Source: Pseudonocardia sp. SCN 73-27 (GTDB lineage Bacteria > Actinomycetota > Actinomycetes > Mycobacteriales > Pseudonocardiaceae). Taken from it: a stretch of 64,000 bases of DNA. A program made the position numbers and the translations under genes. Below are positions 3,747 to 62,316 of this stretch, piece after piece. A model generated the notes under the pieces. That model was not told the DNA's origin. It saw only the letters and a program-made list of their open reading frames with translations, and did not search any database. The stretch covers positions 236,664-300,663 of the forward strand of contig MEGH01000005.1 in the NCBI GenBank assembly GCA_001725415.1. Direction: 5' to 3'. Numbering within the stretch: position 1 is the stretch's first letter; every line of letters starts with the position of its first letter.

Positions 3747-4658
3747 ATGACGAGCGGTGGTCGGGTCGCGATCGTGACGGGCGGCGCGTCGGGGATCGGG
3801 AGGGCCCTCGGCGCGGCGCTCGTCGCCCGGGGCGACACGGTCGTGCTGGCCGACGTCGACGTCGAGGGGGCGACGTCGGCCGCCGACGGCATGCGCGGAC
3901 CCGGGACGGCGACGGCCGCTGCACTCGACGTCCGTGACGGGCCCGCCGTCGAGCGGCTGGTCCACTACACCGCCGACGCCCATGGCCGGCTCGACCTCAT
4001 GGTCAACAACGCCGGGCTCGGCATCGGCGGGCCCGTGGACGAGCTGACGGCCGCGCACTGGGACCGGGTCGTCGACGTCAACCTGCGTGGCGTGATCCAC
4101 GGCGTGCACGCCGCCTACCCGGTGATGGTGCGACAGCGGCGCGGACACATCGTCAACACCGCGTCGATGGCCGGGCTGGTCCCCGGGCCCGGGCTGACGC
4201 CGTACGCCACGACGAAGTGGGGTGTCGTCGGGCTGTCGCTGAGCCTGCGCGCGGAGGCGGCGCGGCACGGCGTCCGGGTGACGGTGGTGTGCCCGGCCGG
4301 CGTCGACACCCCGATCCTCGACAAGGGCCCGCCCGCCGACCTGCCGCGCATCCCGTCCGACGACACCGTCGACGCGCGGAAGATGATCACGATCATGAGC
4401 GGCGGCAAGCTCTATGACGCGGACGCACTCGCGGCCGACGTGCTGCGCGGCATCGACCGCAACAAGGCACTGGTCGTGCGGCCGCGCTATGCAGGTCTGC
4501 TGTGGCGGCTGACGCGCCTCTCCCCCGCCGGCATGACCCGCCTCGCTGCCCTCACCGCGTCCCGCGCAACCCACTCGCGAGTGGCGTTACTGGCCATGGC
4601 CAGCAATGCCACTCACGAGCGCCGGAGGCGTGTTGTCCGGTCCCGGCCGCGACGGTGA
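3747..4658 (+). CDS. Short-chain dehydrogenase/reductase with a repeat-derived tail
   Basis: A classical SDR of 303 residues. It has the cofactor motif TGGASGIGR (residues 9-17), NNAG near residue 90, and the catalytic Tyr/Lys in YATTKW near residue 153. An acidic DVDVEG after the second strand makes NAD(H) more likely than NADP(H). The substrate is not readable. The last ~28 residues are unusual: codons from 4574 to 4619 are a palindromic repeat of the family described in this window, giving a tail containing ALLAMASNATHER. The enzyme proper probably ends near residue 275. The convergent larA-like gene begins after a second repeat copy. Confidence 0.85.
   Translation: MTSGGRVAIVTGGASGIGRALGAALVARGDTVVLADVDVEGATSAADGMRGPGTATAAALDVRDGPAVERLVHYTADAHGRLDLMVNNAGLGIGGPVDELTAAHWDRVVDVNLRGVIHGVHAAYPVMVRQRRGHIVNTASMAGLVPGPGLTPYATTKWGVVGLSLSLRAEAARHGVRVTVVCPAGVDTPILDKGPPADLPRIPSDDTVDARKMITIMSGGKLYDADALAADVLRGIDRNKALVVRPRYAGLLWRLTRLSPAGMTRLAALTASRATHSRVALLAMASNATHERRRRVVRSRPRR
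4574..4619. repeat. Palindromic repeat family A, copy 1 (inside SDR 3' end)
   Basis: Imperfect palindrome with outer arms CTCGCGAGTGGCGTTACTGG and the matching right arm ending ACTCACGAG; the centre is TGGCCATGGCCA. It lies in frame within the SDR and encodes part of its C-terminus. Confidence 0.85.
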
Positions 4659-4675
4659 CGTTCACTGCTGCCCTC

Positions 4676-4715
4676 GTGCGCGGCAATGGTCGCTATGGCG
4701 ACCATTGCCGCGCAC
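4676..4715. repeat. Palindromic repeat family A, copy 2
   Basis: Perfect 17-bp arms (4676-4692 and 4699-4715) around CTATGG, followed by the typical AGG after the right arm. It fills the gap between the stops of the SDR (plus strand) and the LarA homologue (minus strand). Confidence 0.9.
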
Positions 4716-4721
4716 AGGGGT

Positions 4722-6002
4722 TCAGGCTGCGACGTACGGCAGCGTCAGGGGGCCTTCCGGCAGGACGCAGACCCGGGAGTCGGGGCCCGCGGCGGCGAGG
4801 GCCTCGTCGACCGTCTCTCGGACGTCGGCGCACGGGAGCAGGTGGGCCGAGCGCAGGTCGTCGGCATCGAGGTAGTCGGTGTGGACGGCCACCCGCGCGC
4901 GGTCGAGGACGCGGGCGAGCACCTGGACCTGCCACTGGTCGGGCACGGTCCTCTCGCGCGCCGCGATCGAGTCCAGCAGCGCCCGCGGCGAGTCCGCCGA
5001 GGCCAGGACCTCGCGGAACGAGCCGTGGTCGGGGAACCCGTCGCGACACTCCGCGGCACAGACGATCCGCCCACCCGGGCGCACGACGGTCGCGGCCGCC
5101 GACATGCCCTTCACCGCCTGGTAGAGGTTCTGGTCGAGCGGGTGCCCGGCGTTGGTGGTGACGACGACGTCGAACAGCCCGTCGACGGGCACCATCGCGA
5201 CCCGCCGCGCCTCCTCCCGGGCGACGGCGTGCATCGCGAGGACCTCCCCGCCGAACGCGGCGACGACGCGTTGGTCGCGGTCGAGGATGACGTCACACGC
5301 GAAGTCGACGCCCGTGGCCGCGGCGATGGCGCGCACGTCGTCGTGGACCGGGTTGCCCTCGCAGATCCCCCAGATGGCCTTGGGGTCGCCGATCCGTGTC
5401 GCGTCGTGGAGGGTCAGGACGGTCTCCAGCGCCGCCAGGCCCGGCGCGACGAGCTTGGGGCCGCCGCTGAACCCGGCGAAGAAGTGCGGCTCGACGAACC
5501 CGGTCGTGATCCGGACGTCGGCCTCGACCCAGTCGCGGGCCAGCCACACGGGCACGTCGTTGCCGTGGCGGCCGCGCCAGACGAGCGTGGACTCGTCGCG
5601 GGCGTCGTGGTTGACCACGCGGTAGGTCCCGAGGATGTCCGTGCCCAGCATGGCGAGCAGCTCGTCGTCGGTGTTGCCGCGATGGGTGCCGGTGGCGACC
5701 ATGATCGTGACGTCGTCGGGGCGCAGGACGCCCTCGAGCTCGTCGAAGATCTCGGCGAGCATCAGCTCGCGCGGCTGCGGGCGGGTGCCGTCGCAGATCG
5801 AGATGGCGACGCGCTGTCCCGGCTTCACGATCTCCCGCAGCGGCGGCCCGGCGACCGGGTGACGTAGCGCGTCGCGGACGAGCCGCTGCGGCGGCGTCGT
5901 GACGCTCAGGTGCGCCGGTTCGACGACCGTCGTGCGCTCCGTGGGCAGGTCCACCTCCAGCCCGTCGCTGCCGTACGCGAGCCGGACCCGTCGCTCACTC
6001 AC
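4722..6002 (-). CDS. LarA-like nickel-dependent racemase homologue
   Basis: A 426-residue protein matching the LarA (DUF2088) family in length and motifs. The N-terminal domain carries DGTRPQP and MVATGTHRGN; the central region carries VNHDARD and GFVEPHFFAGFSGGPK, where the family's metal-pincer cofactor-binding His/Lys residues lie. LarA racemises lactate or related 2-hydroxy acids using a nickel-pincer nucleotide made by LarB, LarC and LarE. None of those maturation genes is nearby, so the substrate and metal state are open; paralogues racemise other hydroxy acids. GTG at 6002 follows AGGAG at good spacing. Confidence 0.8.
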   Translation of the reverse strand: MSERRVRLAYGSDGLEVDLPTERTTVVEPAHLSVTTPPQRLVRDALRHPVAGPPLREIVKPGQRVAISICDGTRPQPRELMLAEIFDELEGVLRPDDVTIMVATGTHRGNTDDELLAMLGTDILGTYRVVNHDARDESTLVWRGRHGNDVPVWLARDWVEADVRITTGFVEPHFFAGFSGGPKLVAPGLAALETVLTLHDATRIGDPKAIWGICEGNPVHDDVRAIAAATGVDFACDVILDRDQRVVAAFGGEVLAMHAVAREEARRVAMVPVDGLFDVVVTTNAGHPLDQNLYQAVKGMSAAATVVRPGGRIVCAAECRDGFPDHGSFREVLASADSPRALLDSIAARERTVPDQWQVQVLARVLDRARVAVHTDYLDADDLRSAHLLPCADVRETVDEALAAAGPDSRVCVLPEGPLTLPYVAA

Positions 6003-7104: not shown

Positions 7105-7112
7105 CCCACCTG

Positions 7113-34690: not shown

Positions 34691-34728
34691 GGTCCGGAAC
34701 CGTACCCGGCTGCTCGCACGGGGCTCGC

Positions 34729-34764
34729 GAGTGGAGATGGTCGCTGTAGCGACCATCGCCGCTC
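34729..34764. repeat. Palindromic repeat family A, copy 3
   Basis: GAGTGGAGATGGTCGCT and AGCGACCATCGCCGCTC around GT, with CTCGC before and ACAGG after. The arms have two mismatches. It lies in the 80-base gap between the sortase stop and the proA-like start. Confidence 0.8.
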
Positions 34765-34770
34765 ACAGGC

Positions 34771-37139: not shown

Positions 37140-38327
37140 ATGGCGACGCAGCCGACGCGCGAGGACAGGTTCAGCTTCGGGCTGTGGACCGTGGGCTGGC
37201 CCGCCCGCGACCCCTTCGGCGACGCCACCCGGCCCGCGCTCGACCCCGTCGAGTCGGTCCACCGGCTCTCCGACCTGGGCGCATGGGGCGTCACGTTCCA
37301 CGACGACGACCTCATCCCCTTCGGCACCGACGCCGCCGAGCGCAACCGGATCATCGCCCGCTTCCGCGGTGCGCTCGACGCGACCGGCCTCGTCGTCCCG
37401 ATGATGACGACGAACCTGTTCACCCACCCCGTCTTCAAGGACGGCGCCTTCACCAGCAACGACCGCGGCGTCCGCCGGTTCGCGCTGCGCAAGGTGCTGC
37501 GCAACCTGGACCTCGCCGCCGAGCTCGGCGCGTCGACCTACGTGTTCTGGGGTGGCCGCGAGGGCGCGGAGGTCGACCAGGGCAAGGACATCCGCGCCGC
37601 GCTCGACCGCTACCGCGAGGGCATCGACCTGCTCGCCGGCTACGTCAAGGAGCAGGGCTACGGCATCCGTTTCGCCATCGAGCCCAAACCCAACGAGCCC
37701 CGCGGCGACATCCTGCTGCCCACCCTCGGCCACGCGCTGGCGTTCATCGCCGAGCTGGAGCACGGCGACATCGTCGGCGTGAACCCCGAGGTCGGGCACG
37801 AGCAGATGGCCGGGCTCAACTACTCCGCCGGCATCGCGCAGGCGCTGTGGGCGGGCAAGCTCTTCCACCTCGACCTCAACGGCCAGCGCGGCATCAAGTA
37901 CGACCAGGACCTGATCTTCGGCCACGGTGACCTGCTCAACGCCTTCTCTCTGGTCGACCTGCTGGAGAACGGCGCCCCCGGCGGCGGCCCGGTGTACGAC
38001 GGCCCACGCCACTTCGACTACAAGCCGCTGCGCACCGAGGACGTCGCCGGGGTCTGGGACTCCGCCGCCGCGAACATGCGCACCTACCTGCTGCTCCGCG
38101 AGCGTGCCGCGGCGTTCCGTTCCGACCCCGAGGTCGTGTCGGCATTGGCGACGTCGGGCGTCGCGGACCTCGGCACGCCGACGCTGAACAGCGGCGAGAC
38201 GGCGGCCGACCTCCTGGCCGACCGGACCGCGTTCGAGGACTACGACGCCGACAAGGAGGCCGAGCGCGGCTACGGCTACGCGAAGCTGGCCCAGCTGGCG
38301 CTGGAACACGTCCTGGGGGCCCGATGA
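37140..38327 (+). CDS. xylA: Xylose isomerase
   Basis: A 395-residue actinobacterial-type (class I) xylose isomerase converting D-xylose to D-xylulose. It opens with [18 protein letters not shown], has the catalytic His in [11 protein letters not shown] near residue 54, VFWGGREG near 138, the metal Glu in IEPKPNEP near 180 and the [10 protein letters not shown] and LDLNGQ metal-binding blocks later. The length is typical of Streptomyces/Actinoplanes enzymes. AAGGGG precedes the ATG. It is followed by xylB and a ROK regulator, making a complete intracellular xylose module; no transporter is visible. Confidence 0.95.
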
Positions 38328-38332
38328 CCCCT

Positions 38333-38372
38333 GTGAGTGGCAATCATGGCTATAGCCATGATTGCCACTCAC
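38333..38372. repeat. Palindromic repeat family A, copy 4 (perfect)
   Basis: A perfect 40-bp palindrome with 20-bp arms, GTGAGTGGCAATCATGGCTA and its complement. It occupies the gap between xylA (stop 38327) and xylB (start 38392) and is the most regular copy in the window. Confidence 0.93.
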
Positions 38373-38391
38373 GACCTCTGGGGGGCGTCGC

Positions 38392-39807
38392 GTGACGCGG
38401 GGGCTCGTCGCCGGGGTCGACTCGTCGACACAGTCGTGCACCGTCGTCATCCGGGACGCTGCGACCGGCGCGCCGGTCCGGCGCGGGGTGGCGCCCCACC
38501 CGGCCGGCACGTCGGTTTCTCCTGACGCATGGTGGTCCGCTCTGCAGGCTGCTCTCGAGAGCGCCGGGGGGATCGACGACGTCGCCGCGATCTCGGTCGG
38601 CGCCCAGCAGCACGGGATGGTGTGCCTCGACGCCTCCGGCGCGGTGGTCCGCGACGCGTTGCTGTGGAACGACACCCGCTCCGCGGCCGCGGCCGACGAA
38701 CTGGTCGCCGAGCTCGGCGCCCAGACCTGGGCGGACGCGACGGGCAGCGTGCCGGTGGCGTCGTTCACGGTCACGAAGCTACGGTGGCTGGCCTCGCACG
38801 AGCCGGAGCACGCCGCCGCGACCGAGGCCGTCGCGCTGCCCCACGACTGGCTGACGTGGCGGCTGCGCGGCACCGGCGCCCTCGACGACCTCACCACCGA
38901 CCGCAGCGACGCCTCCGGCACCGGCTACTTCTCCCCGACGACGGACGAGTACCGCATCGACCTGCTCGAACGCGCCCTCGGCCGGCCCGGTGTACTGGTC
39001 CCGCGGGTGGCCGCGCCGTCGGAGGTCGTCGGCCACACGCCGGGAGGGATCACGCTCGGACCGGGCGCCGGGGACAACGCGTCGGCAGCGCTGGGCCTCG
39101 GCGCGAAGCCCGGCGACGTCGTCGTGTCGCTGGGGACGTCGGGCGTCGTCAGCGCGGTCAGCCCGGTCGCGACGGCCGATCCGACGGGGACCATCGCCGG
39201 GTTCGCGTCGGCGACCGGGGAGCACCTGCCGCTGGTCTGCACCCTCAACGCCGCCCGCGTTCTCGACGCCGCCGCGACCCTGCTGCGTGTGGACCACGAG
39301 TCGTTGTCCGGGCTCGCCCTGTCCTGTCCGCCCGGGGCGGGCGGGCTCGTTCTCGTCCCCTATCTGGACGGCGAGCGGACGCCGAACCGTCCCGACGCGA
39401 CGGGCTCGCTGCACGGCCTCACCCTCGGCACCGCCGACCCCTCCCATCTCGCGCGCGCCGCGGTCGAGGGCCTGCTCTGCGGACTCGCCGACGCCCTCGA
39501 CGCGCTGGTCGACGCGGGTGTGCCCGTCGAGCGGATCCTGCTCGTCGGCGGGGCGGCGCGATCGGAGGCGGTCACCCGGATCGCACCGGCGGTGTTCGGC
39601 CGGCCCGTCGTCGTCCCGACGCCCGGCGACTACGTGGCCGACGGCGCCGCCCGCCAGGCCGCCTGGGCGCTCTCCGGCACTCTTCCGGAGTGGGAGGCCG
39701 CCGGCACCGTCGTCCACGAGGCCGACCCGACGCCCGCGGTGCGCGAGCGCTACGCCGCCGTCCGCGACATGACCGCCACGCGGCTCAGTGATACCGCTCC
39801 CCGGTGA
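38392..39807 (+). CDS. xylB: Xylulokinase
   Basis: A 471-residue FGGY-family sugar kinase. [12 protein letters not shown] at the N-terminus is the phosphate-1 loop, [12 protein letters not shown] is the xylulokinase-type substrate loop, LWNDTRS follows, and [11 protein letters not shown] plus [12 protein letters not shown] are the adenine-side motifs. It phosphorylates D-xylulose to feed the pentose phosphate pathway. GTG at 38392 follows a GGGGGG ribosome site. It starts 64 bases after xylA with a palindromic repeat in the gap and overlaps the ROK gene. Confidence 0.93.
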
Positions 39808-40948: not shown

Positions 40949-42023
40949 ACCGCTCGTGACTGGCGTCATTGGCTATAGCCAATGACGCCAGTCGCACGTA
41001 GAGGAGACGGTCGCCGCGCTCGAGGGCGTCGACCGACGCGTGGTCGACGCGCACCAGCTCGTTGTTGCGGACGACGCCCAGCACGATGTCGGGCAGATGC
41101 CGCGGCGAGCCCCCGACCTCGGTCTCCTCGACCTGCCGCTCACTGATCGCGAAACCCGCGTCCGGCGTCAGCAGGTCCTCGATGACCTCGACGACGCTCG
41201 GGGTCGTCGTCGCCACACCCAGCAGCCGGCCCGCCGTCTCCGCCGAGACGATGACCGAGTTCGCGCCCGACTGCCGCAGCAGGTGCACGTTCTCCGACTC
41301 CCGGACCGCAACGACGATCGTGATCTTCGGGGCCAGCTCGCGGGCGGTCAGCGTGACGAGGACGGCGGTGTCGTCCCGGTTCGCCGCGATCACGATCGCC
41401 GACGCGTACGGCACGCCCGCGACGCGCAGCACGCTCGACCGGGTCGCGTTGCCGTTCACCGTGATCAGCCCGAGCGCGGACGCGGCGTCGAGCTGCGTGC
41501 GGTCGGTGTCGACGACGACGATCTCCGACGGGTCCGCCCCGTCGCCGAGGAGCGTGTCGACCGCGGCCCGGCCCTTGGTGCCGTAGCCGACGATGATCGT
41601 GTGGTCGCGCACGCGTGACCTCCAGCGGGAGATGCGATACGCCTGGCGCGAGCGTTCCGTGAGCAGTTCCACGGTGGTGCCGACCAGGACGATGAGGAAG
41701 AGCAGCCGCAACGGCGTGATGACGACCGTCGTGACCAGCCGGGTCGCGCTCGTGACCGGGACGATGTCGCCGTAGCCGGTGGTCGAGAGCGACACGGTCG
41801 CGTAGTAGAGGGCGTCGAGGAACGAGATGCCGCTGCCGTCGTCGTTGTTGTCGACGTAGCCCGCTCGCGACAGCCAGACGATCAGCGCGGTCGCGAACAG
41901 CGCACCCAGCGCGACCGCGAGGCGGCGCACCAGGGACACGACCGGGCCGACGGTCGGGTCCGGCATACGCAGGGCGCCCGCGGTCTCCCTGTCGAGAACC
42001 CTGCGCCGCAACCGCTCGTTCAT
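40926..42023 (-). CDS. Two-span K+ channel with TrkA (RCK) domain
   Basis: A 365-residue potassium channel: two membrane helices (LAVALGALFATALIVWL and LLFLIVLVGTTVELL) flank the pore loop with the selectivity filter TTGYGD. A Rossmann RCK-N domain follows (TIIVGYGTKGRAAVDTL) and an RCK-C domain closes it. Orthologues such as Rv3200c are presumed K+ channels. The last ~14 residues (LASLAIANDASHER...) are encoded by a palindromic repeat at 40958-40993 and do not belong to the domain. It converges on the ROK gene and overlaps its end. Confidence 0.87.
   Translation of the reverse strand: MNERLRRRVLDRETAGALRMPDPTVGPVVSLVRRLAVALGALFATALIVWLSRAGYVDNNDDGSGISFLDALYYATVSLSTTGYGDIVPVTSATRLVTTVVITPLRLLFLIVLVGTTVELLTERSRQAYRISRWRSRVRDHTIIVGYGTKGRAAVDTLLGDGADPSEIVVVDTDRTQLDAASALGLITVNGNATRSSVLRVAGVPYASAIVIAANRDDTAVLVTLTARELAPKITIVVAVRESENVHLLRQSGANSVIVSAETAGRLLGVATTTPSVVEVIEDLLTPDAGFAISERQVEETEVGGSPRHLPDIVLGVVRNNELVRVDHASVDALERGDRLLYVRLASLAIANDASHERFTPRRGP
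40958..40993. repeat. Palindromic repeat family A, copy 5 (perfect)
   Basis: A perfect 36-bp palindrome (arms GACTGGCGTCATTGGCTA and complement) with CTCGT before and GCAC after. It lies inside the 3' end of the K+ channel gene and just past the ROK stop. Confidence 0.92.
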
Positions 42024-52272: not shown

Positions 52273-52349
52273 GGCCCCTTTATTGCAGGAACGGCACTGT
52301 GCCAGGGCACCAGAGCCGGGGCGGGGCCAAGGGCACGCGTCCCGCGCTC

Positions 52350-52389
52350 GTGAGTGGCGTTATTGGCTATAGCCAACAACGCCACTCAC
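52350..52389. repeat. Palindromic repeat family A, copy 6
   Basis: A 40-bp palindrome with one mismatch (GTGAGTGGCGTTATTGGCTA / TAGCCAACAACGCCACTCAC), flanked by CTC and AGG. It lies between the convergent stops of the ATL gene and the chelatase gene. Confidence 0.92.
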
Positions 52390-52394
52390 AGGCC

Positions 52395-53066
52395 CTACGC
52401 GGCCGACTGTGCGAGGGCGTCCTCGTAGCGGGCCAGGATCGTGTCGACGACTGCCGGGTGCGTGCCCAGGGGTGCGGCGACGACGTCGGCCCCGCAGGCG
52501 GCGACGCGGTCGGCGAACGCCCCCGGCGCCAGCAGCCAGGAGGCGACGGCGATCCGCGTCTCCCCGGCCGACCGCAGCCCGGCGACGAGGGTGTCGACCC
52601 GCGGCGCGGCGGAGGCGGCGAACCCCACCCGCACCCGACGGCCCGTCGCGACCTGCAGCGTCCGCGCGGCCTGCCGTACCTGACCGAGAGCGACCGCGTC
52701 GGCCGATCCCGCGGCGGCGAGGACGACGGCGTCGCCGTGGCGCCACCCGGCCTGGCGGAGCCGGTCGAGCGCGGCCGCCGCGAGCGCGGGGTCGGGACCG
52801 ATCGCGGGCGTCACCGGGAACGAGGACGCCCCCGCGGCGGCCAGCTGGGCCGGCAGGTCACGGCGGACGTGGTACCCGGCGGCGAGGAACGCGGGGACGA
52901 CGACGGCGTGCGGCAGGTCCGCGGCGACCGACGCGATCGTCGGGCCGCGGACGTCGGCGTAGGCGAGCCGGACATCGAGTCCGGACCGGGTCTGCACCGC
53001 GTTCGCGAGGTCCCGGGAAGCGTCGCCCGATCGGCTCCCGTGTGCGACGAGCAGGAGCGGGGTCAC
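52395..53066 (-). CDS. Sirohydrochlorin chelatase (CbiX-like)
   Basis: A 223-residue chelatase: LLLVAHGSRSGDASR with the catalytic His at the N-terminus and VVPAFLAAGYHVRRDLP with the second metal-binding His in the middle, the CbiX/SirB pattern, and a second half repeating the fold. Next to nirBD it most likely inserts iron to make siroheme for the nitrite reductase. It is the last gene of the nitrate operon and overlaps the NnaR-like gene by four bases (GTGA), so siroheme supply is coupled to the operon. Confidence 0.85.
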   Translation of the reverse strand: MTPLLLVAHGSRSGDASRDLANAVQTRSGLDVRLAYADVRGPTIASVAADLPHAVVVPAFLAAGYHVRRDLPAQLAAAGASSFPVTPAIGPDPALAAAALDRLRQAGWRHGDAVVLAAAGSADAVALGQVRQAARTLQVATGRRVRVGFAASAAPRVDTLVAGLRSAGETRIAVASWLLAPGAFADRVAACGADVVAAPLGTHPAVVDTILARYEDALAQSAA

Positions 53067-54244
53067 CGCGAACCTCCGCAGTGCCCACCGATGGGGATGG
53101 GCCCGGCGGCGGGGTCGAGGGCGAGCCGGTACCCGCGTTTGACGACGGTCTGCACCAGCTTCGGCTCCCCCAGCGCCGCACGCAGCCGGGCGACGGCGGT
53201 CTCGACGGCGTGCTCGTCGTGGCCGCCTCCGGGCAAGGCGCGCAACAGCTCCGCACGCGCGACGACCCTTCCCGGGCGGCGCGCGAGCACCCGCAGCAAC
53301 GCCATCCCGGTCGGCGGGACGGGCCGCAGGGAGCCGTCGACGAGAACGGCGTGTCCGCGCAGCTCCAGGACGTGCCCGGCGACGGGTAGCCACCGCGCCC
53401 GGGCGGGTGCGACGGCCTCCAGCTCGCGGACCATGGCGCCGAGCCGGGAGCGGTGGGGTTGCACGGTGGGGACGTCGACATCCTGCAGCGGCGCGGCGGT
53501 GACGGGGCCTACGCACATGACGAGGACGGGTCCGCGGAGGGCGGCGAGCAGCGGATCCCGCAGACCGCGCTCGTCGGCGCGGGCCAGCATGCTCGCGGCG
53601 GCGGGGGCGCTGGTGAAGGTCAGGATGTCGACGCCGCCGGCGAGGACGGCGTCGGTGAGCCGGTCGAGCGGGGTGACGTCCTGAGGTGGCAGCCACCGGT
53701 AGACCGGTACCTCGACGACCTCGGCGCCCGCCATGACGAGGGCCTCGACCATGTCGGGCAACGGTTCCCCGTGGAGCTGGACGGCGATCCGTAGTCCGTC
53801 CACACCGGACTCCAGGAGGTGGTCGAGCACCTCGGCCGACGACTCGGACTCCGGCGACCACGCGTCGGCCAGCCCGGACGCCCGGATCGCCCCGCGCGCC
53901 TTGGGTCCACGGGCGAGGACGGCTCCCTTGCCGAGCACCGTGACCAGGTCGTCGCCCAGCCCCCAGCCATCGGCGGCCTCGATCCAGCCGCGGAACCCGA
54001 TACCCGTCGTCGCGACCGTGACGTCCGGTGGACGAGCGATCAGCGCGCGGGTGCTCTCGAGCAGCTGGGTGTCGTCGGCCAGCGGGACGATCCGCAGCGC
54101 CGGCCCGTGCTGGACGACGGCGCCGCGCCGCTCCAGCATCGTCGTCAGCTCCTCGGCACGCCGGGCCGCCGTGACGCCGACCGTGAAGCCCGCCAGCGCC
54201 GGCACGGCCGCGTCGTCGCGCTTCCCGGCGACGGCCACGATCAT
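53063..54244 (-). CDS. NnaR-type regulator: HemD domain fused to OmpR-type winged helix
   Basis: A 393-residue fusion. The N-terminal ~260 residues are a uroporphyrinogen-III-synthase-like domain (FTVGVTAARRAEEL, TVATTGIGFRGWIEAADGWG, ILTFTSAPAAASMLAR). The C-terminal ~100 residues are an OmpR/PhoB winged helix (RPVPPTGMALLRVLARRPGRVV, HAVETAVARLRAALG). This is the architecture of mycobacterial NnaR, which works with GlnR to activate nitrate and nitrite assimilation genes. It sits in the operon it would control. HemD-like catalysis has not been shown for this class. Confidence 0.85.
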   Translation of the reverse strand: MIVAVAGKRDDAAVPALAGFTVGVTAARRAEELTTMLERRGAVVQHGPALRIVPLADDTQLLESTRALIARPPDVTVATTGIGFRGWIEAADGWGLGDDLVTVLGKGAVLARGPKARGAIRASGLADAWSPESESSAEVLDHLLESGVDGLRIAVQLHGEPLPDMVEALVMAGAEVVEVPVYRWLPPQDVTPLDRLTDAVLAGGVDILTFTSAPAAASMLARADERGLRDPLLAALRGPVLVMCVGPVTAAPLQDVDVPTVQPHRSRLGAMVRELEAVAPARARWLPVAGHVLELRGHAVLVDGSLRPVPPTGMALLRVLARRPGRVVARAELLRALPGGGHDEHAVETAVARLRAALGEPKLVQTVVKRGYRLALDPAAGPIPIGGHCGGSR

Positions 54245-54600
54245 CGCCCGACCCTCTGAGACACAGCTCGCAGCGCGACGATCCCGCCGTCGACCGAGAC
54301 GTCGTACACCTCGACGCGCACGGTCGGGTCGTCGAGACAGGTGCCGTCCACCAGCGAGAACACCTGCTTGTAGACGGGCGACGCGACGGTGGGGACACCG
54401 CCGCGGTCGCCGACGATCCCGCGCGAGAGCACCGCCGCCCCCGAGAACGGGTCGACGTTGCCGAGCGCGTGCACCGACCCCTCGTGCGTGCGGAACAGCG
54501 CGACCTGCCGCCCGTCGAGCAGCGCGGCGACCCCGCGTTCGGGTTCGAGCTGGTCGACGCGACACACGGGCGTCCACGTCGCCAGGACGGCTGCGGTCAC
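54241..54600 (-). CDS. nirD: Nitrite reductase small subunit NirD
   Basis: A 119-residue Rieske-fold protein without Fe-S ligands, as normal for NirD: FRTHEGSVHALGNVDPFSGAAVLSRGIVGDRG, then VASPVYKQVFSLVDGTCLDD. It binds NirB to complete NADH-dependent nitrite reductase, which reduces nitrite to ammonium. GTG at 54600 overlaps nirB by four bases, and its own stop overlaps the start of the NnaR-like gene. Confidence 0.92.
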   Translation of the reverse strand: MTAAVLATWTPVCRVDQLEPERGVAALLDGRQVALFRTHEGSVHALGNVDPFSGAAVLSRGIVGDRGGVPTVASPVYKQVFSLVDGTCLDDPTVRVEVYDVSVDGGIVALRAVSQRVGR

Positions 54601-57119
54601 GAGCCCACCTCCGGGATTCCGATCAACACGGGCGTGCGGGGCGCGGGCACCTGCTGGCCGCGCTCGGTCACGAACGAGATCGTCGGGTCGGGGGATCCCG
54701 GCGCGTTGACGAAGGACACGAAGCGCGACAGCTTCTCCTCGTCGGCGAGCACCCCGGTCCACTCGTCGGCGTACGACGCGACGTGCGCCGCCATCGCCGC
54801 CTCCAGGTCCGCACAGATGCCGAGCGAGTCGTCGACGATCACCGCACGCAGGTGGTCGAGCCCGCCTTCCATGGCCTCGATCCAGGATGCGGTGCGCTGC
54901 AGGCGGTCCGCGGTCCGGACGTAGAACATCAGGAACCTGTCGACGAGCCGCACGAGCGTCTCGGTGTCCACATCGGACACGAGCAGGTCGGCATGCCGCG
55001 GGGTGAAGCCGCCGTTGCCGCCGACGTAGAGGTTCCAGCCGGTCTCCGTCGCGATGATTCCGAAGTCCTTGGAGCGGGCCTCCGCACACTCACGCGCACA
55101 ACCGGAGACCCCTGACTTGATCTTGTGTGGGCTGCGCAGCCCGCGGTAGCGCAGCTCCAGCTCGACGGCCAGCCCGACGGAGTCCTGCTGCCCGTACCGG
55201 CACCACGTGCTGCCGACGCAGGACTTCACCGTCCGCAGTGCCTTGCCGTAGGCGTGGCCGGACTCGAAGCCGGCGTCGACCAGGCGTCGCCAGATCTCGG
55301 GGAGCTGTTCGACGCGGGCGCCGAACATGTCGATCCGCTGCCCGCCGGTGATCTTGGTGTAGAGCCCGAAGTCGCGGGCGACCTCGCCGATGACGATCAG
55401 CCCGTCCGGCGTGATCTCCCCGCCCGGCACCCGCGGCACGACGCTGTAGGTGCCGTCGCGCTGCATGTTGGCGAGGAAGCGGTCGTTGGTGTCCTGCAAC
55501 GACGCCTGCTCGCCGGCGAGGATGTGGCCCCTCCCGAGAGAGGCGAGGATCGACGCGACGACCGGTTTGCAGACGTCGCAGCCCCGGCCGGTGCCGTGGC
55601 GCGCGACGAGGTCGCTGAACGTCGTGATGCCGGCACCGGCGACGATCTCGAACAGCTCGGCGCGGGAGGCGGCGAAGTGCTCGCAGAGGGCTTTCGAGAC
55701 CTCGACGCCTTCCTGCACGAGCAGCGTTTTCAACAGGGGGACGCAGGAGCCGCAGCTGGTTCCGGCTCGGGTGCAGGCCTTGAGATCGGCAACGGTGCAC
55801 GCGCCCTCGGCGATCGCTTCGCGGAGGGCCCCCTTCGTGACCGCGTTGCACGAGCACACCTGCGCGCCGTCCGGCAGCGCGTCCGCGCCCAGTTCGACGG
55901 CGCCGGGGGCGATGAGCGCCACCGGATCGGCGGGCAGGGCTTGTCCGACGAGCGGGCGCAGCGCGGCGTACCGGGAGGCGTCGCCCACGAGGACCCCGCC
56001 GAGCAGCGTCGATGCGTCGTCGCTGACGACCAGCTTCGCGTACGTGCCCGCGACCGGGTCGTTGATCACCACGGGCAGCGCGCCCTCGGTCGTCGCGTGC
56101 GCGTCGCCGAAACTGGCGACGTCCACGCCCAGCAGCTTGAGCTGCGTCGACATGTCGAGCTCGGCCGGCGTCATGCGGGCGTCGCCGCCCAGCAGGCGAT
56201 CCGCGACGACCTCCGCCATCGCGTACCCCGGCGCCACCAGCCCGTAGGTCCGTCCCTCCAGCGCCGCGCACTCGCCGACGGCCCAGACGTGCTGGTCCGC
56301 GGTGCGGCACCGGTCGTCGACCAGCACTCCGCCGCGCTCGCCGACCGCCAGCCCGGCGCTCCTCGCGAGGCCGTCGGCCGCCCTGATGCCCGCGGAGAAC
56401 ACGACGACGTCGGCGTCCAGCTCGATCCCGTCGGACAGCTGCGCGACGAGCCGCCCCCGGTCCGCGACGATCCCCGCCACCGAGACGCCGCAGCGCACCG
56501 CGATGGCCTGGCGCTCGACGAGCGTCCGCAGCAGTGCCCCACCGCCCTCGTCGACCTGCACCGGCATCAGCCGCGGTGCGATCTCGACGACCTGCGGCGA
56601 CAGCCCCAGCGAGCGCATCGCCCGCGCCGCCTCCAGCCCGAGCAACCCGCCGCCGACGACGACGGCCGATCTCCTGCCCGGCACCGGGCGCCCGAGCGCC
56701 GCTCGGGCTGCGGCCTTGATGGAGTCCAGGTCATCGAGGGTGCGGTACACGAAGCACCCCGGCAGCTCACGTCCCGGGACGGGCGGCACGAACGGAACCG
56801 AACCGGTCGCGAGGACGAGCGCGTCGTAGCGGATCGTCTCGCCGTCAGCGGTGCGGACCAGCCGTTCCTCACGGTCGATGCCTACGACGGAGGTACCGCG
56901 CCGGACGTCGACCAACGGATCGTCGTGCGTGCCGAGCGACAGCTCGTCCTCGGTCCGACCATCCACATAGGACGAAAGGGCGACGCGGTCGTAGGCCGGC
57001 CGGTCCTCCTCTCCCAGGACCGTGACGTGCCAGGTGCCGGTGCTGTCGCGGTCGCGCAGGGCTGCCACGAGCCGGTGCCCGACCATCCCGTGCCCGACGA
57101 CGACCAGCTCCCGGGTCAT
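54597..57119 (-). CDS. nirB: NADH-dependent nitrite reductase large subunit NirB
   Basis: An 840-residue assimilatory nitrite reductase. It starts with an FAD/NAD domain (GHGMVGHRLVAAL, ALVLATGSVPFVPP), then a BFD-type [2Fe-2S] region with CSCNAVTKGALREAI and TSCGSCVPLL near residues 420-470. It ends with a siroheme/[4Fe-4S] domain whose Cys ligands are CVGSTWC near 636 and CARECAEARSKD near 672. Electrons pass NADH to FAD to Fe-S to siroheme and reduce nitrite to ammonium. ATG at 57119 overlaps the preceding gene by four bases. Confidence 0.95.
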   Translation of the reverse strand: MTRELVVVGHGMVGHRLVAALRDRDSTGTWHVTVLGEEDRPAYDRVALSSYVDGRTEDELSLGTHDDPLVDVRRGTSVVGIDREERLVRTADGETIRYDALVLATGSVPFVPPVPGRELPGCFVYRTLDDLDSIKAAARAALGRPVPGRRSAVVVGGGLLGLEAARAMRSLGLSPQVVEIAPRLMPVQVDEGGGALLRTLVERQAIAVRCGVSVAGIVADRGRLVAQLSDGIELDADVVVFSAGIRAADGLARSAGLAVGERGGVLVDDRCRTADQHVWAVGECAALEGRTYGLVAPGYAMAEVVADRLLGGDARMTPAELDMSTQLKLLGVDVASFGDAHATTEGALPVVINDPVAGTYAKLVVSDDASTLLGGVLVGDASRYAALRPLVGQALPADPVALIAPGAVELGADALPDGAQVCSCNAVTKGALREAIAEGACTVADLKACTRAGTSCGSCVPLLKTLLVQEGVEVSKALCEHFAASRAELFEIVAGAGITTFSDLVARHGTGRGCDVCKPVVASILASLGRGHILAGEQASLQDTNDRFLANMQRDGTYSVVPRVPGGEITPDGLIVIGEVARDFGLYTKITGGQRIDMFGARVEQLPEIWRRLVDAGFESGHAYGKALRTVKSCVGSTWCRYGQQDSVGLAVELELRYRGLRSPHKIKSGVSGCARECAEARSKDFGIIATETGWNLYVGGNGGFTPRHADLLVSDVDTETLVRLVDRFLMFYVRTADRLQRTASWIEAMEGGLDHLRAVIVDDSLGICADLEAAMAAHVASYADEWTGVLADEEKLSRFVSFVNAPGSPDPTISFVTERGQQVPAPRTPVLIGIPEVGS

Positions 57120-58591
57120 GCTGCCCCCTCCGTGTAGTCGTGGTCCTGCGTGGTGGAGCCGACCCGTTCCTGCAACTGGGGCGGGCCCGGATCGGCGGGC
57201 GCGTCCGTCGCGGCCAGCCACGCGCAGATGCCCTCGACCGTCCCGGCGCAGCTGCCGCAGCCCGTCGCGGCGCGGGTTGCTCCGCGCAGCGCCGCGAGAT
57301 CCGTTGCCCCCGAACGCCATGCGGCGACGAGGGCACCCTTGGTGACGGTGTTGCACCGGCACACCACGGCGGCCGCGGGGAGGCGCCCCGGATCGGAGGT
57401 CGGCGTCGCCTCGCCCGGAAGCGCGCGCCCGAGCAGCAGGGCGAGGCGGTCGGACGGGGCGGGCGATCCGGTGTCGTGCAGCTGGATCATCGACGCCGCC
57501 GCGTCAGGGAAGCCGATCATGATCCCGCCGACGACCCGGTCGTCGCGCAGCGCCAGCTTCGCGTACCGGCCGCGGCGGGAGTCGGTGAGCCGCAGCAGCT
57601 CCACGGTGTCGTCCTCGGCGTGGACGTCACCGACCGCGGTGAGGTCGACGCCGGAGGCCTTGAGCCGGGTGACGGCCCGCGTACCGCGGTAGCGGGCAGC
57701 CGGGTCGGCGCCGGTGAGCAGGTCGGCGAGGACCGCGGCCTGCTCCCATCCGGGCTGGACGAGCCCGGATGGGGCGCCGTCGTGCTGGGCGCAGTCGCCG
57801 ATCGCGTACACGTGCTCCAGCGAGGTGCGCAGCCGGTCGTCGACGACGATCCCGCGGTCGACCTGGGCGCCGGCGTCGGACGCGAGCGTGGTCTCGGGGC
57901 GCACCCCGGCGGCGACGACGAGGCCGTCCGCATCGATCACGGTTCCGTCGTTGCAGGTCAGGCCGGTGCCGGGCGCCCAGGAGACGGCGCCGACCCCGAG
58001 CAGGACCCGCACCCCCAGCTTGTCGACGACATCGGCCAGTACCGCGCCTGCACCCGCGTCGAGTTGGCGTTCCATGAGGTGCCCGGCCGGGTGGACGACG
58101 GTGACGTCGACACCTCGGGCGGCGAGCCCGCGTGCCGCCTCCAGCCCGAGGAGCCCGCCGCCGAGGACGGCGAGCGTCGCGCCGGGGCGGGCCATGTCGA
58201 GGATGGCGAGGCAGTCGTCGAGGTCCCGGAATCCGACGACGCCGGGCCCCGGCACTCCGGCGACCGGCGGCAGCCAGGCTCGCGAGCCGGTCGCGAGGAC
58301 GAGGTCGTCATAGGGCAGGAGGGTGCCGTCGGCGAGGGTCAGGGTGCGCGTGGCCGGACGGAGTGAGACTGCCGCGATCCCGGACCGCAGGTCGACCTCT
58401 GGATCGACCGTGGGCAGCGCGATCCCCGCGGGATCGATGCCGCCGGCGAGGACCGTCGACAGCAGGACCCGGTTGTACGCGGGATGCGCCTCGGCCCCGA
58501 CGACGGTCAGCCGCGCGCCACCGCGGCGACGCACCTCGTCGGCGAACCGGGCGCCGACCATCCCGTTGCCCACCACCACGATGCGCCTCAT
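57116..58591 (-). CDS. Assimilatory nitrate reductase electron-transfer subunit (NasB-like)
   Basis: A 491-residue FAD-dependent pyridine-nucleotide oxidoreductase plus BFD-like domain. It resembles the N-terminal half of NirB (GNGMVGARFADEV, VLATGSRAWLPPV, GGGLLGLEAARGL) and carries a Cys cluster CRCNTVTKGALVAAW...GCGSCAGTVEGICAW near residues 410-460. It presumably takes electrons from NAD(P)H and passes them to the molybdopterin nitrate reductase encoded just upstream, as NasB does in other bacteria. ATG at 58591 overlaps the nitrate reductase stop by four bases. Confidence 0.85.
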   Translation of the reverse strand: MRRIVVVGNGMVGARFADEVRRRGGARLTVVGAEAHPAYNRVLLSTVLAGGIDPAGIALPTVDPEVDLRSGIAAVSLRPATRTLTLADGTLLPYDDLVLATGSRAWLPPVAGVPGPGVVGFRDLDDCLAILDMARPGATLAVLGGGLLGLEAARGLAARGVDVTVVHPAGHLMERQLDAGAGAVLADVVDKLGVRVLLGVGAVSWAPGTGLTCNDGTVIDADGLVVAAGVRPETTLASDAGAQVDRGIVVDDRLRTSLEHVYAIGDCAQHDGAPSGLVQPGWEQAAVLADLLTGADPAARYRGTRAVTRLKASGVDLTAVGDVHAEDDTVELLRLTDSRRGRYAKLALRDDRVVGGIMIGFPDAAASMIQLHDTGSPAPSDRLALLLGRALPGEATPTSDPGRLPAAAVVCRCNTVTKGALVAAWRSGATDLAALRGATRAATGCGSCAGTVEGICAWLAATDAPADPGPPQLQERVGSTTQDHDYTEGAA

Positions 58592-60699
58592 GCCGCCCCC
58601 TCCGCGGAGGCCGCCTCGGCGGGTCGTGAGCGGTAATGGTCGCTACAGCGACCATTACCGCTCACAGGCTCCAGACGGACCGCGGCGACCTTGAACTCCG
58701 GCATCCGGCTGACCGGATCCAGCGCGGGGTTGGTGATCAGGTTCGCGGCCTGGTCGTCGCCGAAGTGGAACGGCAGGAACACCGTGTCCGGGCGCAGCGT
58801 CGCGACGCAGCGGACCCGGGCGCGCACACGGCCGCGGCGGGACTCCACGTGAGCCCATCCGCCGTCGGCCAGTCCGGCGCGGGCCGCGGTGTCGGGGTGG
58901 ACCTCGACGAAGTTCTCCGGCGAGATCGAGACCAGTTCGTCGACGCGGCGCGTCTGCGCCCCCGACTGGTAGTGCACCAGCACCCGGCCGGTGGTGGCGC
59001 GCAACGGATAGGGATCGTCGGGGAGCTCGGCGGCGGGCACGTGGTCGACGGCGACGAGGCGGGCGCGGCCGTCGGGGTGGGCGAAGTGGTCGAGGAAGAG
59101 GCGTGGGGTGCCGGGGTGGTCGGTCGACGGGCAGGGCCAGTGCAGCGACTCGCCTGCGTCGAGGCGCTCATAGGTGATGCCGGAGTAGTCGGCGGGTCCG
59201 CCCGCCGACGCCGCGCGCAGCTCGTCGAACACCGCGCGCGGCGTCGTGGGGAAGCCGCCGTAGCCCAGTTCGGCGGCGAGGTCGGTGATGACGTCGAGGT
59301 CGGTCGGGACGCCGGGTGGCGGGGGCAGAGCGCGGCGGCGGCGCAGCACCCGGCCCTCGAGGTTCGTGACGGTGCCCTCCTCCTCGGCCCACTGGGCGAC
59401 GGGCAGCACCACGTCGGCGCGCCGGGCGGTCTCGCCGGGCAGGAAGTCGGCGACGACAAGGAGATCGAGCGCGTCCAATTTGGAGGCGACACGGGCCGAG
59501 TCAGGCGCCGACACCCGCAGGTTCGACCCGAACACCAGCAGCGCCCGCGGGCCCCCTGGCGTACCGATGGCGTCGATGAGCTCGACCGCCGACCGGCCCG
59601 GGCCGGGGATCGAGGCCGGGTCCACCCCCCACACACCCGCGACGTGCGCACGCGCGGCCGGATCGTCGATGCGGCGGTAGCCGGGCAGCTGGTCGGCCTT
59701 CTGCCCGTGCTCGCGCCCGCCCTGCCCGTTGCCCTGCCCGGTGATCGTCCCGAACCCGGACCCCGGTGTGCCGGGGAGCCCGAGCGCGAGGGCGAGGTTG
59801 ATCCACGCCGTCACGGTGTCGACGCCGTGCGCGTGCTGCTCGGCGCCCCGCGCGGTGAGGACGTAGCGGCGCGAGGACCCGGCCAGCCAGGAGACGACTG
59901 TCCGCATGTCGGCAGCCGCCACCCCGCACACGCGCTCGGCCCGCTCCGGCCACCACTGCGCGGCGAGCCGCCAGGCGTCGTCGAAACCCGTTGTACGCGA
60001 AGACAGATAGTCGGTGTCGACCGCGCCGGACACCACCGCCGCATGCAGGAGACCCAACGCGAGGACGAGGTCCGTTCCCGGCACCGGCTGCAGGTGCAGA
60101 CCCCCGGAGCCGACAGCACGCTCGGCCGTCGGCGTAAGGCGCGGGTCGACGACCACCAGCCGCGCCGAGCCCAGGTGCCCCATCAGTGGCGGCATCGTCT
60201 CGGCGACGTTCGCACCGGCGAGGACGACGACGTCGGCGTCGTCGAGGTCGGTCACCGGGAACGGCAGGCCGCGGTCGAGGCCGAAGGCGCGGTTGCCCGC
60301 CGCCGCGGCCGACGACATGCAGAAGCGGCCGTTGTAGTCGATCTGCGACGTCCGCAGCGCGACGCGGGCGAAGCGCCCCAACAGGTACGCCTTCTCGTTG
60401 GTGAGCCCGCCGCCGCCGAGGACGGCCACGGAGTCCGGCCCGTGCAGAGCCTGCAGCTCACGGAGGCGGCCGCCCACATAGGAGAGCGCGGCGTCCCAGG
60501 ACGACACCCGTCCGTCCACCACAGGAGAGAGCAGCCGGTCCGGGTGCGCCAGCAGCGACCCCGCCGTCCAGCCCTTCTGGCACAGCCCACCGCGGTTGGT
60601 CGGGAACTCCCGCGGCGTGACCTCACCGTCGGCGCCGACCGTCATGCCGCACTGCAGTGCGCAGTACGGGCAGTGGGTGTCGGCGGGCATGCGGGCCAT
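58588..60699 (-). CDS. Assimilatory nitrate reductase catalytic subunit (NasC/NarB type)
   Basis: A 703-residue molybdopterin oxidoreductase. The [4Fe-4S] ligands are CPYCALQC near residues 10-17 and the Cys of GGLCQKGWTAG near 46. Molybdopterin-binding motifs include YNGRFCMSSAAAAGNRAFG and GSGFGTITGQGNGQGGREHG, both characteristic of nitrate reductases. It reduces nitrate to nitrite in the cytoplasm. The last ~25 residues (VSGNGRCSDHYRSRPA...) come from a palindromic repeat at 58626-58665. Starts at 60699 and 60690 (ATG) are both possible; no ribosome site is evident. Confidence 0.9.
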   Translation of the reverse strand: MARMPADTHCPYCALQCGMTVGADGEVTPREFPTNRGGLCQKGWTAGSLLAHPDRLLSPVVDGRVSSWDAALSYVGGRLRELQALHGPDSVAVLGGGGLTNEKAYLLGRFARVALRTSQIDYNGRFCMSSAAAAGNRAFGLDRGLPFPVTDLDDADVVVLAGANVAETMPPLMGHLGSARLVVVDPRLTPTAERAVGSGGLHLQPVPGTDLVLALGLLHAAVVSGAVDTDYLSSRTTGFDDAWRLAAQWWPERAERVCGVAAADMRTVVSWLAGSSRRYVLTARGAEQHAHGVDTVTAWINLALALGLPGTPGSGFGTITGQGNGQGGREHGQKADQLPGYRRIDDPAARAHVAGVWGVDPASIPGPGRSAVELIDAIGTPGGPRALLVFGSNLRVSAPDSARVASKLDALDLLVVADFLPGETARRADVVLPVAQWAEEEGTVTNLEGRVLRRRRALPPPPGVPTDLDVITDLAAELGYGGFPTTPRAVFDELRAASAGGPADYSGITYERLDAGESLHWPCPSTDHPGTPRLFLDHFAHPDGRARLVAVDHVPAAELPDDPYPLRATTGRVLVHYQSGAQTRRVDELVSISPENFVEVHPDTAARAGLADGGWAHVESRRGRVRARVRCVATLRPDTVFLPFHFGDDQAANLITNPALDPVSRMPEFKVAAVRLEPVSGNGRCSDHYRSRPAEAASAEGAA
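58626..58665. repeat. Palindromic repeat family A, copy 7
   Basis: A 40-bp palindrome with perfect 19-bp arms (GTGAGCGGTAATGGTCGCT / complement) and a two-base centre, flanked by TC and AGG. It lies inside the 3' end of the nitrate reductase gene and is translated as its C-terminus. Confidence 0.93.
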
Positions 60700-60761
60700 C
60701 GTCGGACGGCCCGGTACCGGTCGTGGTTCGGCGACGTTTCCAGCGCGTGACACCGGCAAGA

Positions 60762-62132
60762 TCACACCGCCACCGGTGCGCCGGCCGTCGCGCGGGCGGG
60801 CGAGCGGAGGTAGACGACGACCGTCACCACCGTGCACACCAGATAGAACGCGAAGAACACCCAGAACGCCGGCACCCCCGACCTCGTCGCGGCGAACGAC
60901 TGCCGGAACGCCAGGTTGATGAGCAGCCCACCGAGTGCGCCGACGGCCGCGATGAGCCCGATCGCCGCGCCGGAGACGCGTCGGGCGTGCAGCAGGGCCG
61001 CGTCAGCCGAGGCGATGCGCGCCAACGCCTTCCGTCGGAAGATCGCGGGGATCATCTTGTACGTCGACCCGTTCCCGACGCCCGAGAACACGAACAGCGC
61101 GATGAACCCGGCGACGAACAGCGGCAGCGACGCCATGCCCGACGCCACGATGCACACGACGGCCGCGGCGGCCATGGCCACGAAGTTGACGGCGGTGACG
61201 CGGGCGCCGCCGAAGCGGTCGGCCAGCCAGCCGCCGAGCGGGCGGATGAACGACCCGAGCAGCGGGCCGATGAACGTCAGTGCCGCGGCCTGCAACGGGG
61301 TGCGACCGAACTGCGTCTGCAGCACCAGCCCGAAGGCGAAGCTGTAACCGATGAACGAGCCGAACGTGCCGATGTAGAGGAACGACATGATCGCGGTGTC
61401 GCGGTCGGCGACGGCCAGCCTGAAGGCGCCGGTGTCGTTGCGGACGCTCGACAGGTTGTCCATGAACAGCGCCGCACACACCGCGCAGATCACGATCAGC
61501 GGGATGTAGACGGCCAGCAGCAGCTTCGGGTGCCCCGCGCCCGCGGTGGCGATGACCAGCAGCGCGACCAGCTGGATGACGGCCACGCCCAGGTTGCCGC
61601 CGCCCGCGTTGAGCCCCAGCGCGGTGCCCTTGCGGCCCTCGGGGAAGAACGTGTTGATGTTCGTCATCGACGACGCGAAGTTGCCACCACCGAACCCGGC
61701 CAGCGCCGCCATCAGCACGAACACCGCGTACGGGGTACCGGGCTGCAGGACGAACGCGGCCGCGACCGTCGGGATCAGGAGCAGCAGGCCCGACACGATC
61801 GTCCAGTTGCGGCCGCCGAAGCGTGCCACCGCGAACGTGTACGGCACCCGCAGCACCGCCCCGACCAGCGTCGCCGTCGCGCCGAGGAAGAACTTCCCGG
61901 CGGCGTCGACGCCGTACTCCGGGCCCATGAACAGCACGAACACCGACCACAACGTCCACACCGAGAATCCGACGTGCTCGACGAAGATCGACGCCCACAG
62001 GTTGCGGTTCGCGACCCTGCGGCCCGTGCGCTCCCAGAAGCCGGGGTCCTCGGGCTCCCAGTCGTCGATCCAGCGCCCGCCCAGCCGCCCCCGGCTGCTC
62101 GACTGCTCGTTCGTGACGTCCGTGAGGGTCAC
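60762..62132 (-). CDS. narK: Nitrate/nitrite transporter NarK
   Basis: A 456-residue MFS permease of the NarK/NasA type with 12 predicted spans. The nitrate signature stretches are GFGGGNFASSMTNINTFFP and GGGNLGVAVIQLV in the first half and FGRTPLQAAALTFIGPLLGSFIRPLGGWLADRFGG in the loops. It imports nitrate, and possibly exports nitrite, for the reductases downstream. GTG at 62132; the gap to the nitrate reductase gene is only 62 bases, so all seven genes may be one operon. Confidence 0.93.
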   Translation of the reverse strand: MTLTDVTNEQSSSRGRLGGRWIDDWEPEDPGFWERTGRRVANRNLWASIFVEHVGFSVWTLWSVFVLFMGPEYGVDAAGKFFLGATATLVGAVLRVPYTFAVARFGGRNWTIVSGLLLLIPTVAAAFVLQPGTPYAVFVLMAALAGFGGGNFASSMTNINTFFPEGRKGTALGLNAGGGNLGVAVIQLVALLVIATAGAGHPKLLLAVYIPLIVICAVCAALFMDNLSSVRNDTGAFRLAVADRDTAIMSFLYIGTFGSFIGYSFAFGLVLQTQFGRTPLQAAALTFIGPLLGSFIRPLGGWLADRFGGARVTAVNFVAMAAAAVVCIVASGMASLPLFVAGFIALFVFSGVGNGSTYKMIPAIFRRKALARIASADAALLHARRVSGAAIGLIAAVGALGGLLINLAFRQSFAATRSGVPAFWVFFAFYLVCTVVTVVVYLRSPARATAGAPVAV

Positions 62133-62274
62133 GCCTGGCCTCCCGCCGCTCGCCGATCAGATCGGTGGCAGACGCTAGGAAGCGCGGATTACCTCGTCGT
62201 GGCCCCGCGTGTCATCGACGCAACGGGGCCCTCAATGTGACGCGGTCGACGCTGTGAGGCGCCGGTCGACGCTC

Positions 62275-62316
62275 GTGAGCGGTAATGGTCGCCATAGCGC
62301 GACCATCGCCGCTCAC
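62275..62316. repeat. Palindromic repeat family A, copy 8
   Basis: Arms GTGAGCGGTAATGGTCGC and GCGACCATCGCCGCTCAC with two mismatches and a CATAGC centre, flanked by CTC and AGG. It lies just past the stop of the TIGR02569-like gene and ~140 bases upstream of narK. Confidence 0.88.

Follow-up and report, generated by a model that had tools for sequence, protein, structure and literature searches.

The DNA analysed here is a window of 64,000 nt (G000:C5:236664-300663) in the 6.95-Mb genome of a Pseudonocardia close to P. sulfidoxydans, and our subject is a family of short palindromes that lie at the 3' ends of its genes. A preliminary description, made from the sequence alone, had reported eight such palindromes, and an independent detector found exactly those eight in the window. 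The most notable result of our analysis is that the sites of this family are common to sister species whereas the cores of the elements are not. The relatives named below are P. sulfidoxydans NBRC 16205 (G023), P. dioxanivorans CB1190 (G017), P. autotrophica NRRL B-16064 (G025), and Pseudonocardia sp. N23 (G251). Genes were predicted with our own codon-usage finder, not taken from annotation.

All eight palindromes lie at predicted gene 3' ends, as had been proposed, and six of them closely follow a stop codon; the copies at 4574 and 58626 are each located inside a predicted gene, in its final ~80 nt. The first element (4574..4619, unoriented) has a GGC-class core, an imperfect stem, and like flanks on both sides, and it falls within the predicted 3' end of the gene at 3747-4658(+). 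The second (4673..4718, minus strand; first reported at 4676), of the CGC class and with GTGCGCGG ends, occupies a convergent gap, 3 nt off the stop codon of the gene at 4722-6002(-). The third (34724..34769, minus strand; first reported at 34729) is also of the CGC class; the stop codon of a sortase-domain gene (34771-35292, minus strand) is 1 nt away and an aldehyde-dehydrogenase-like gene is 36 nt on. Orthologs of this third element were found in P. sulfidoxydans and P. dioxanivorans.

The fourth element (38330..38375, plus strand), of the GGC class (CAATCATGGC), lies between the genes for xylose isomerase (xylA; 37140..38327, plus strand; TIGR02631, 674.7 bits, cut-off 447) and xylulokinase (xylB; 38392..39807, plus strand; TIGR01312, 380.8 bits, cut-off 380.25). 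It begins 2 nt past the xylA stop codon and ends 16 nt short of the predicted xylB start. The same gap holds a CGC-class element in P. sulfidoxydans and a different strong hairpin in P. dioxanivorans. The fifth element (40953..40998, unoriented; first reported at 40958), of the GGC class and with GTGACTGG ends, lies 4 nt past the stop codon of a ROK-family gene (39851-40948, plus strand) and extends into the predicted 3' end of a gene on the other strand, 40926-41966(-). At its ortholog in P. sulfidoxydans, just above position 10912 of G023:C4 (L230), tandem repeats of ~17 nt (GTGAGCCTGTCCGGGC-like) adjoin the element.

The region of the remaining three elements includes an apparent assimilatory nitrate/nitrite cluster (52395-62132), which contains genes for a NarK-like transporter, NasC-like protein, NirB-like reductase, NirB, NirD, uroporphyrinogen-III synthase, and a CbiX-domain protein, with one element inside the cluster and one at its end. 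The sixth element (52347..52392, minus strand), of the GGC class with CGTTATTGGC on one arm, occupies a convergent gap 2 nt past the stop codon of the CbiX-domain gene (52395-53066, minus strand). The P. sulfidoxydans assembly is broken at the ortholog of this element (starts of contigs C4 and C56), and repeats of the family may be a cause of fragmented draft assemblies. The seventh (58623..58668, minus strand), of the CGC class, falls within the terminal 80 nt of a gene for a NasC-like nitrate reductase (58588-60699, minus strand), and a gene for a NirB-like reductase lies downstream of it in what appears to be a nas/nir operon; these two labels are the best models, with scores below cut-off. 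Its orthologous site is filled in P. sulfidoxydans. The eighth (62272..62319, minus strand), of the CGC class, is 48 nt long with two extra bases near the loop and lies 2 nt past the stop codon of the gene at 62322-63104(-); its site is filled in P. sulfidoxydans and has no element in P. dioxanivorans and Pseudonocardia sp. N23.

Structure of the palindromic unit

The unit comprises 46 nt and contains a 40-nt palindrome with an 18-bp stem and a 4-nt centre, GTGAG(Y)GG-10-YATR-10-CC(R)CTCAC. The predicted hairpin energies of two typical units were -34.7 and -36.8 kcal/mol. Both core classes recognised earlier were recovered with the same membership, GGC in copies 1, 4, 5, and 6 and CGC in copies 2, 3, 7, and 8. 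The claim of common outer ends held in part: GTGAG(Y)GG is near-fixed, but four of the eight copies deviate from it on at least one arm (GCGAG in 4574 and 34729, GTGCGCGG in 4676, and GTGACTGG in 40958). No Rfam match above the gathering score was found at the copies, and the only match in the window was one tRNA.

Among 98 oriented copies, CCT stood on the stop-codon side in 57 and GAC or GAG on the far side in 60. In the oriented profile, GTGAG was preceded mostly by CCT, CCC, CTC, or GTC and CTCAC was followed mostly by GAC, GAG, or AGG. Six of the eight window copies combine a CCT/AGG flank at one end with CTC/GTC (or GAC) at the opposite end, the exceptions being 4574 and 40958, and these unlike flanks therefore give the unit a direction.

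Covariation of the arms was borne out. In the seven window copies without insertion, 96.8% of 126 stem cells were paired, and 10 of the 18 stem pairs had changed on both sides, compared with 5.3 (standard deviation (sd) 1.4) in shuffles, none of which reached 10 (0/500). The step from covariation to selection for pairing was too quick, however, since correction of one arm by the other, or copying between elements, would equally keep the arms matched, and since P. sulfidoxydans has unrelated cores at shared sites (see below). We therefore reject covariation as sufficient proof of selection at the RNA level, because the exchange of matched cores gives the same pattern.

Copy number, distribution, and placement at stop codons

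In a sample of 860,663 b, 12% of the host genome, the detector found 48 elements, compared with three in the reversed sequence. On later inspection two of these detections did not fit the pattern, and without them the proportion gives roughly 370 copies per genome, a figure from a detector that favours 40-mers and undercounts decayed copies. A strict pattern matched 106 times on the forward and 93 times on the reverse strand genome-wide, against 0 and 0 for the pattern written backwards; the excess over chance asserted before is thus confirmed, and a chance origin of the family is rejected by these counts and their backwards and reversed controls. A pattern of the ends alone had 174 matches in the genome, of which 168 were exactly 40 nt long. 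The labels "REP-like" (repetitive extragenic palindromic) and "mRNA-end module" offered in the preliminary description fit a family with hundreds of copies, 3'-end placement, a conserved dyad, and no Rfam match.

The family is restricted in its distribution. A covariance model (for the host genome, at most 150 candidates were scored) had matches in 26 of 36 Pseudonocardia genomes, none in the other 10 of the genus, and none in 24 other genomes of the order. In a class-wide draw, which held no genome of the related genus g26 of the same family, the 40-nt pattern occurred in three of 246 genomes, namely the host and two with a single match each (243 of the 245 others had none). Among the matches listed, all named records with the repeat were Pseudonocardia. 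Seven sampled g26 genomes had 9 to 173 ends-only matches each, with the same ends and other cores; nearly all g26 matches listed were 40 nt long, and their centre was mostly GTTCTAAC or its complement. Halves of different types are joined in one element in g26, and one core dominates in genome G153. In a third genus, of a different family, one genome had 11 matches with a third core. Plasmid records searched for the element gave no match. No published description of the family was found in open-access literature listings, in one of which no listed paper contained GTGAGTGG or CCACTCAC.

When the copies were tabulated against stop codons, as the preliminary description had suggested, a stop codon fell within -12..+60 nt of 180 among the 209 distinct Pseudonocardia copies; 79 of the 180 were flanked in this way on both sides, 20 copies lacked such a stop codon, and nine were located inside genes. 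Typically, the element begins 4-5 nt past the stop codon or supplies its own TGA as the stop. Among the 101 copies with a stop codon on one side, 84 lie within 15 nt and 71 within 7 nt of it, and in 25 the stop codon is the TGA of GTGAG. In g26, a stop codon falls in this range on one or both sides at 35 of the 42 loci examined. Elements in the host sample occupied 21 of 131 convergent, 23 of 538 tandem, and one of 134 divergent gene junctions, with two of 47 elements unassigned. For 10 of 15 listed tandem pairs outside the window, the genes were submitted for naming; some names hint at a shared pathway, and an operon was proven for none. Other strong hairpins of the genome likewise cluster past stop codons but farther away, with a median distance of 13 nt compared with 5 nt for the family (n = 40 and 113, respectively; p = 6e-6).

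Shared sites and differing cores

We compared syntenic stretches for 46 kept sites of the host. All 18 resolvable sites were filled in P. sulfidoxydans, 10 of 22 in Pseudonocardia sp. N23, and two of eight in P. dioxanivorans; in the reverse direction, 17 of 27 P. sulfidoxydans sites were filled in the host. Two host hairpins and three counterparts outside the family were dropped from these counts, and with them the host-to-P. sulfidoxydans figure is 20/20.

The cores at these shared sites differ. In 17 pairs of 40-mers from the host and P. sulfidoxydans, whose anchors were 91% identical, 56 of 306 stem pairs had both bases changed and a further 18 had one. The sum of 74 compares with 72.8 (sd 3.6) in reshuffled partners, so that orthologous cores are no more alike than random ones, and none of the 17 pairs had identical inner arms. 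Cores are also typical of species: the CGC class makes up 124 of 126 40-mers in seven other Pseudonocardia species or strains, whereas the GGC class makes up 20 of 44 in the host. Wherever a GGC-class site of the host had an element in P. sulfidoxydans or N23, the counterpart was of the CGC class (11 of 11 comparisons, 10 sites).

Other hairpins near stop codons served as a control. After removal of two family members, 20 had both anchors, of which four lacked an ungapped match and 16 were compared, and a further 33 could not be placed. In the control, both bases had changed in seven of 234 stem pairs and a single base in 43, part of the latter being indel misregister, and six hairpins had an unchanged stem. 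Total stem change was similar (50/234 versus 74/306 in the family), and the contrast lies in the both-sided changes.

Some empty sites resemble losses, in that a remnant (CCTGTGAG, for example) or a shortened hairpin is left behind. At C5:226537 (L176) of the host, a hairpin GTGAGTGGC-TTCG-GCCGCTCAC (on the other strand GTGAGCGGC-CGAA-GCCACTCAC) stands opposite a full P. sulfidoxydans element, and it is the only short version with exact ends in 1.86 Mb.

A second, rarer family of gene-end palindromes, ~43-53 nt long and with ends GAACGGCAC...GTGCCGTTC, was seen in the xylA/xylB gap of P. dioxanivorans, at L180:1808, L183:6811, and L188:17854 of the host, and in stretches of G017, G251, and G023. 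Exact-ends matches numbered one in 861 kb of the host, four in 240 kb of G017, one in 349 kb of G251, four in 415 kb of G023, and zero in the control.

The preliminary description had also called the elements "MITE-like" (miniature inverted-repeat transposable element) and had proposed a search for a transposase of the RAYT (REP-associated tyrosine transposase) or Y1 type. The first label was not upheld. Half-sites in the host sample were paired in 88 cases and solo in four, which leads us to reject a MITE parent sharing terminal repeats on this sample, and no clean target-site duplication was found in 21 filled/empty alignments, the gap sequence being too diverged at most sites. The search found no Y1 transposase (PF01797) in the host, P. 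sulfidoxydans, P. dioxanivorans, or P. autotrophica, so RAYT-driven spread in the host genome is rejected. The enzyme occurs in five of 62 genomes of the genus (five of 14 control genomes were positive), which have 78 (G022), 14 (G020), 3 (G015), 0 (G003), and 0 (G008) model matches to the element; presence of the enzyme thus does not track copy number. Since half-sites are rarely alone and Y1 does not track the copies, we infer that cores pass from one element to another by being copied (ectopic conversion or template switching) and not by transposition. The alternative to copying is site-by-site selection under a drifting binding specificity.

Possible function and comparison with known systems

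The reading that we favour, though tentatively, is that of a lineage-specific, REP-like hairpin family acting on the mRNA of the upstream gene at its stop codon. We infer that the hairpin would hinder 3'-to-5' decay of the upstream gene's mRNA and would affect how ribosomes are released or recycled at the stop codon. The element may thereby determine how much product the upstream gene yields, within operons such as xylA/xylB as well, and termination of transcription, if any, would be secondary. The conserved ends may be handles for ectopic conversion or template switching between elements. For E. coli, a study as reported in PMC12306157 found that REPs lowered translation only when they lay less than 16 nt from the stop codon. 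On the sense strand, the outermost stem pair of the family is T-G in 55 cases and C-A in 18, a bias that fits RNA wobble but could equally reflect a directional end motif.

Several observations weigh against this reading. The 4-nt centre in Pseudonocardia is mostly self-complementary (YATR), a feature that an RNA loop does not need. In g26, the asymmetric centre TTCTAA/TTAGAA is on the transcript strand in eight versus eight cases (one other), with no preference, and recognition of an RNA loop is rejected on this ground; together, the self-complementary centre and the lack of strand preference point to the DNA level. Many g26 copies have unlike halves with several mismatches. The excess of G-U over A-C stem pairs on the sense strand is weak (25 versus 14, p = 0.11). 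The family-free genus genomes G027 and G002 have ordinary, sequence-diverse hairpins at such places (65 near-stop hairpins per Mb in each, 86 in the host, 137 in P. sulfidoxydans). Furthermore, the host genome is a mixture, with 3.64 mean differences per 10-bp arm compared with 0.72 to 1.53 within five other species. Finally, identity in the 20 bases outside the unit is only 48% across the 17 orthologous pairs, and therefore an element lost and regained at its stop codon, or a gap replaced as a whole, would at most sites give the same picture as an exchange of cores. Only four of these pairs preserve 14 or more of the 20 flanking bases, with 4, 2, 1, and 2 both-sided stem changes, and replacement of the core in place is directly visible at few sites only.

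It is possible, although we judge it unlikely, that the elements are U-less (I-shaped) intrinsic terminators that work in both directions through their palindromy. Their strong enrichment in convergent gaps and near-absence at divergent junctions agree with termination, as do the GC-rich hairpins at the same places in the two family-free genomes. A Streptomyces Term-seq study (PMC8269248) likewise counts 353 structured transcript 3' ends that lack a U tract against 182 that have one and likens the former to I-shaped terminators. However, the median spacing of 5 nt falls in the range in which a ribosome represses termination in E. coli, where the terminator tR2 was nearly fully repressed close to a stop codon and near maximal beyond 30 bp, according to PMC4824070, a relation not shown for actinobacteria. 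Nor does termination alone explain the near-fixed ends, the 40-nt length, and the species-typical cores. Since elements sit between xylA and xylB and between the nasC-like and nirB-like genes, each pair belonging to one pathway, an effect on the upstream mRNA is favoured over plain termination.

The indications of a DNA-level role suit a palindrome that is the site of a dimeric or tetrameric protein (an RNA polymerase roadblock or a nucleoid organiser) whose specificity drifts, so that the sites of each species change together. Such a site would account for the conserved ends, the length, the mostly self-complementary centre, and the equal orientations of the asymmetric g26 core (8:8), and the species-typical cores, which differ in class in 11 of 11 comparisons, look like the outcome of co-evolution with such a protein. 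We consider this doubtful: the host holds two core classes side by side, its inner base pairs are strongly linked across sites as copied haplotypes would be, relatives have another hairpin at the same site in some cases, and one apparent descendant retains a hairpin but has lost the core. No binding protein has been identified, and none was searched for. A small chance also attaches to a further reading, in which a transposase-free, self-homogenising family swaps cores among hundreds of 3'-end sites of one genome via its conserved 8-bp ends, giving each species a "dialect" of its own at every site simultaneously; a protein with sequence specificity would read this dialect at the DNA level and mark gene ends from either direction.

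A selfish mobile palindrome of the MITE or REPIN type (REP doublets forming hairpins), tolerated where harmless and often regained or moved at stop codons, would explain the patchy copy number in the genus, the recurrence of identical 40-mers within one genome, and the poorly kept gap sequence around shared sites. It is nevertheless improbable, given the pairing of half-sites, the lack of a clean insertion with target duplication, the likeness of some empty sites to deletion scars, and the 18 of 18 resolvable host sites common to P. sulfidoxydans, together with the absence of Y1 from the four genomes named above and with G022 being the only element-rich genome among the positives. Uptake sequences can form inverted pairs at gene ends but are mostly single, and a DNA-uptake type sequence doubling as an inverted-pair terminator is barely credible, being contradicted by the near-absence of single half-sites (4/92) in the host sample.

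Knowledge of REP-type repeats goes back to the 1980s, and the title of a 1988 paper reportedly asked of them "Evolution by gene conversion?". The present family shares with dispersed REPIN/RAYT and MITE repeats an inverted symmetry and an uneven copy number, but it has no RAYT in the host genome and neither a parent nor a target duplication in the material examined. The other strong hairpins of the genome vary in sequence from site to site and mostly keep their stems relative to P. sulfidoxydans (16 of 20 aligned gap-free), whereas the family has near-fixed ends and length and cores that differ at shared sites. As with the I-shaped terminators of PMC8269248, its members are stable hairpins without a U tract, past the stop codon at gene 3' ends. 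The closest likeness is to REP or palindromic unit (PU) elements and the GTAG/CGTC REPs, which PMC3733652 and PMC12306157 describe as high-copy, intergenic palindromes of 20-40 nt that often touch a 3' end. GTAG REPs often supply the stop codon of the flanking open reading frame (same sources), as GTGAG does here. Unlike them, the present family has no GTAG or CGTC tag at its end, is a nearly symmetric 40-mer, and has no Y1 transposase in the host genome; 84 of its 101 one-sided copies lie within 15 nt of a stop codon, compared with the ~11% reported for E. coli REPs in PMC12306157. The family is thus real, lineage-restricted, and REP-like, yet it lacks two defining marks of GTAG/CGTC REPs, the tag and the transposase. 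The question of REP evolution, by gene conversion, transposition, or selection for a binding factor, can here be asked with site and core separated, in a RAYT-free genome and with other nearby hairpins as a built-in control, and the stop-codon spacing makes the family a natural system for REP-type control at the end of translation.

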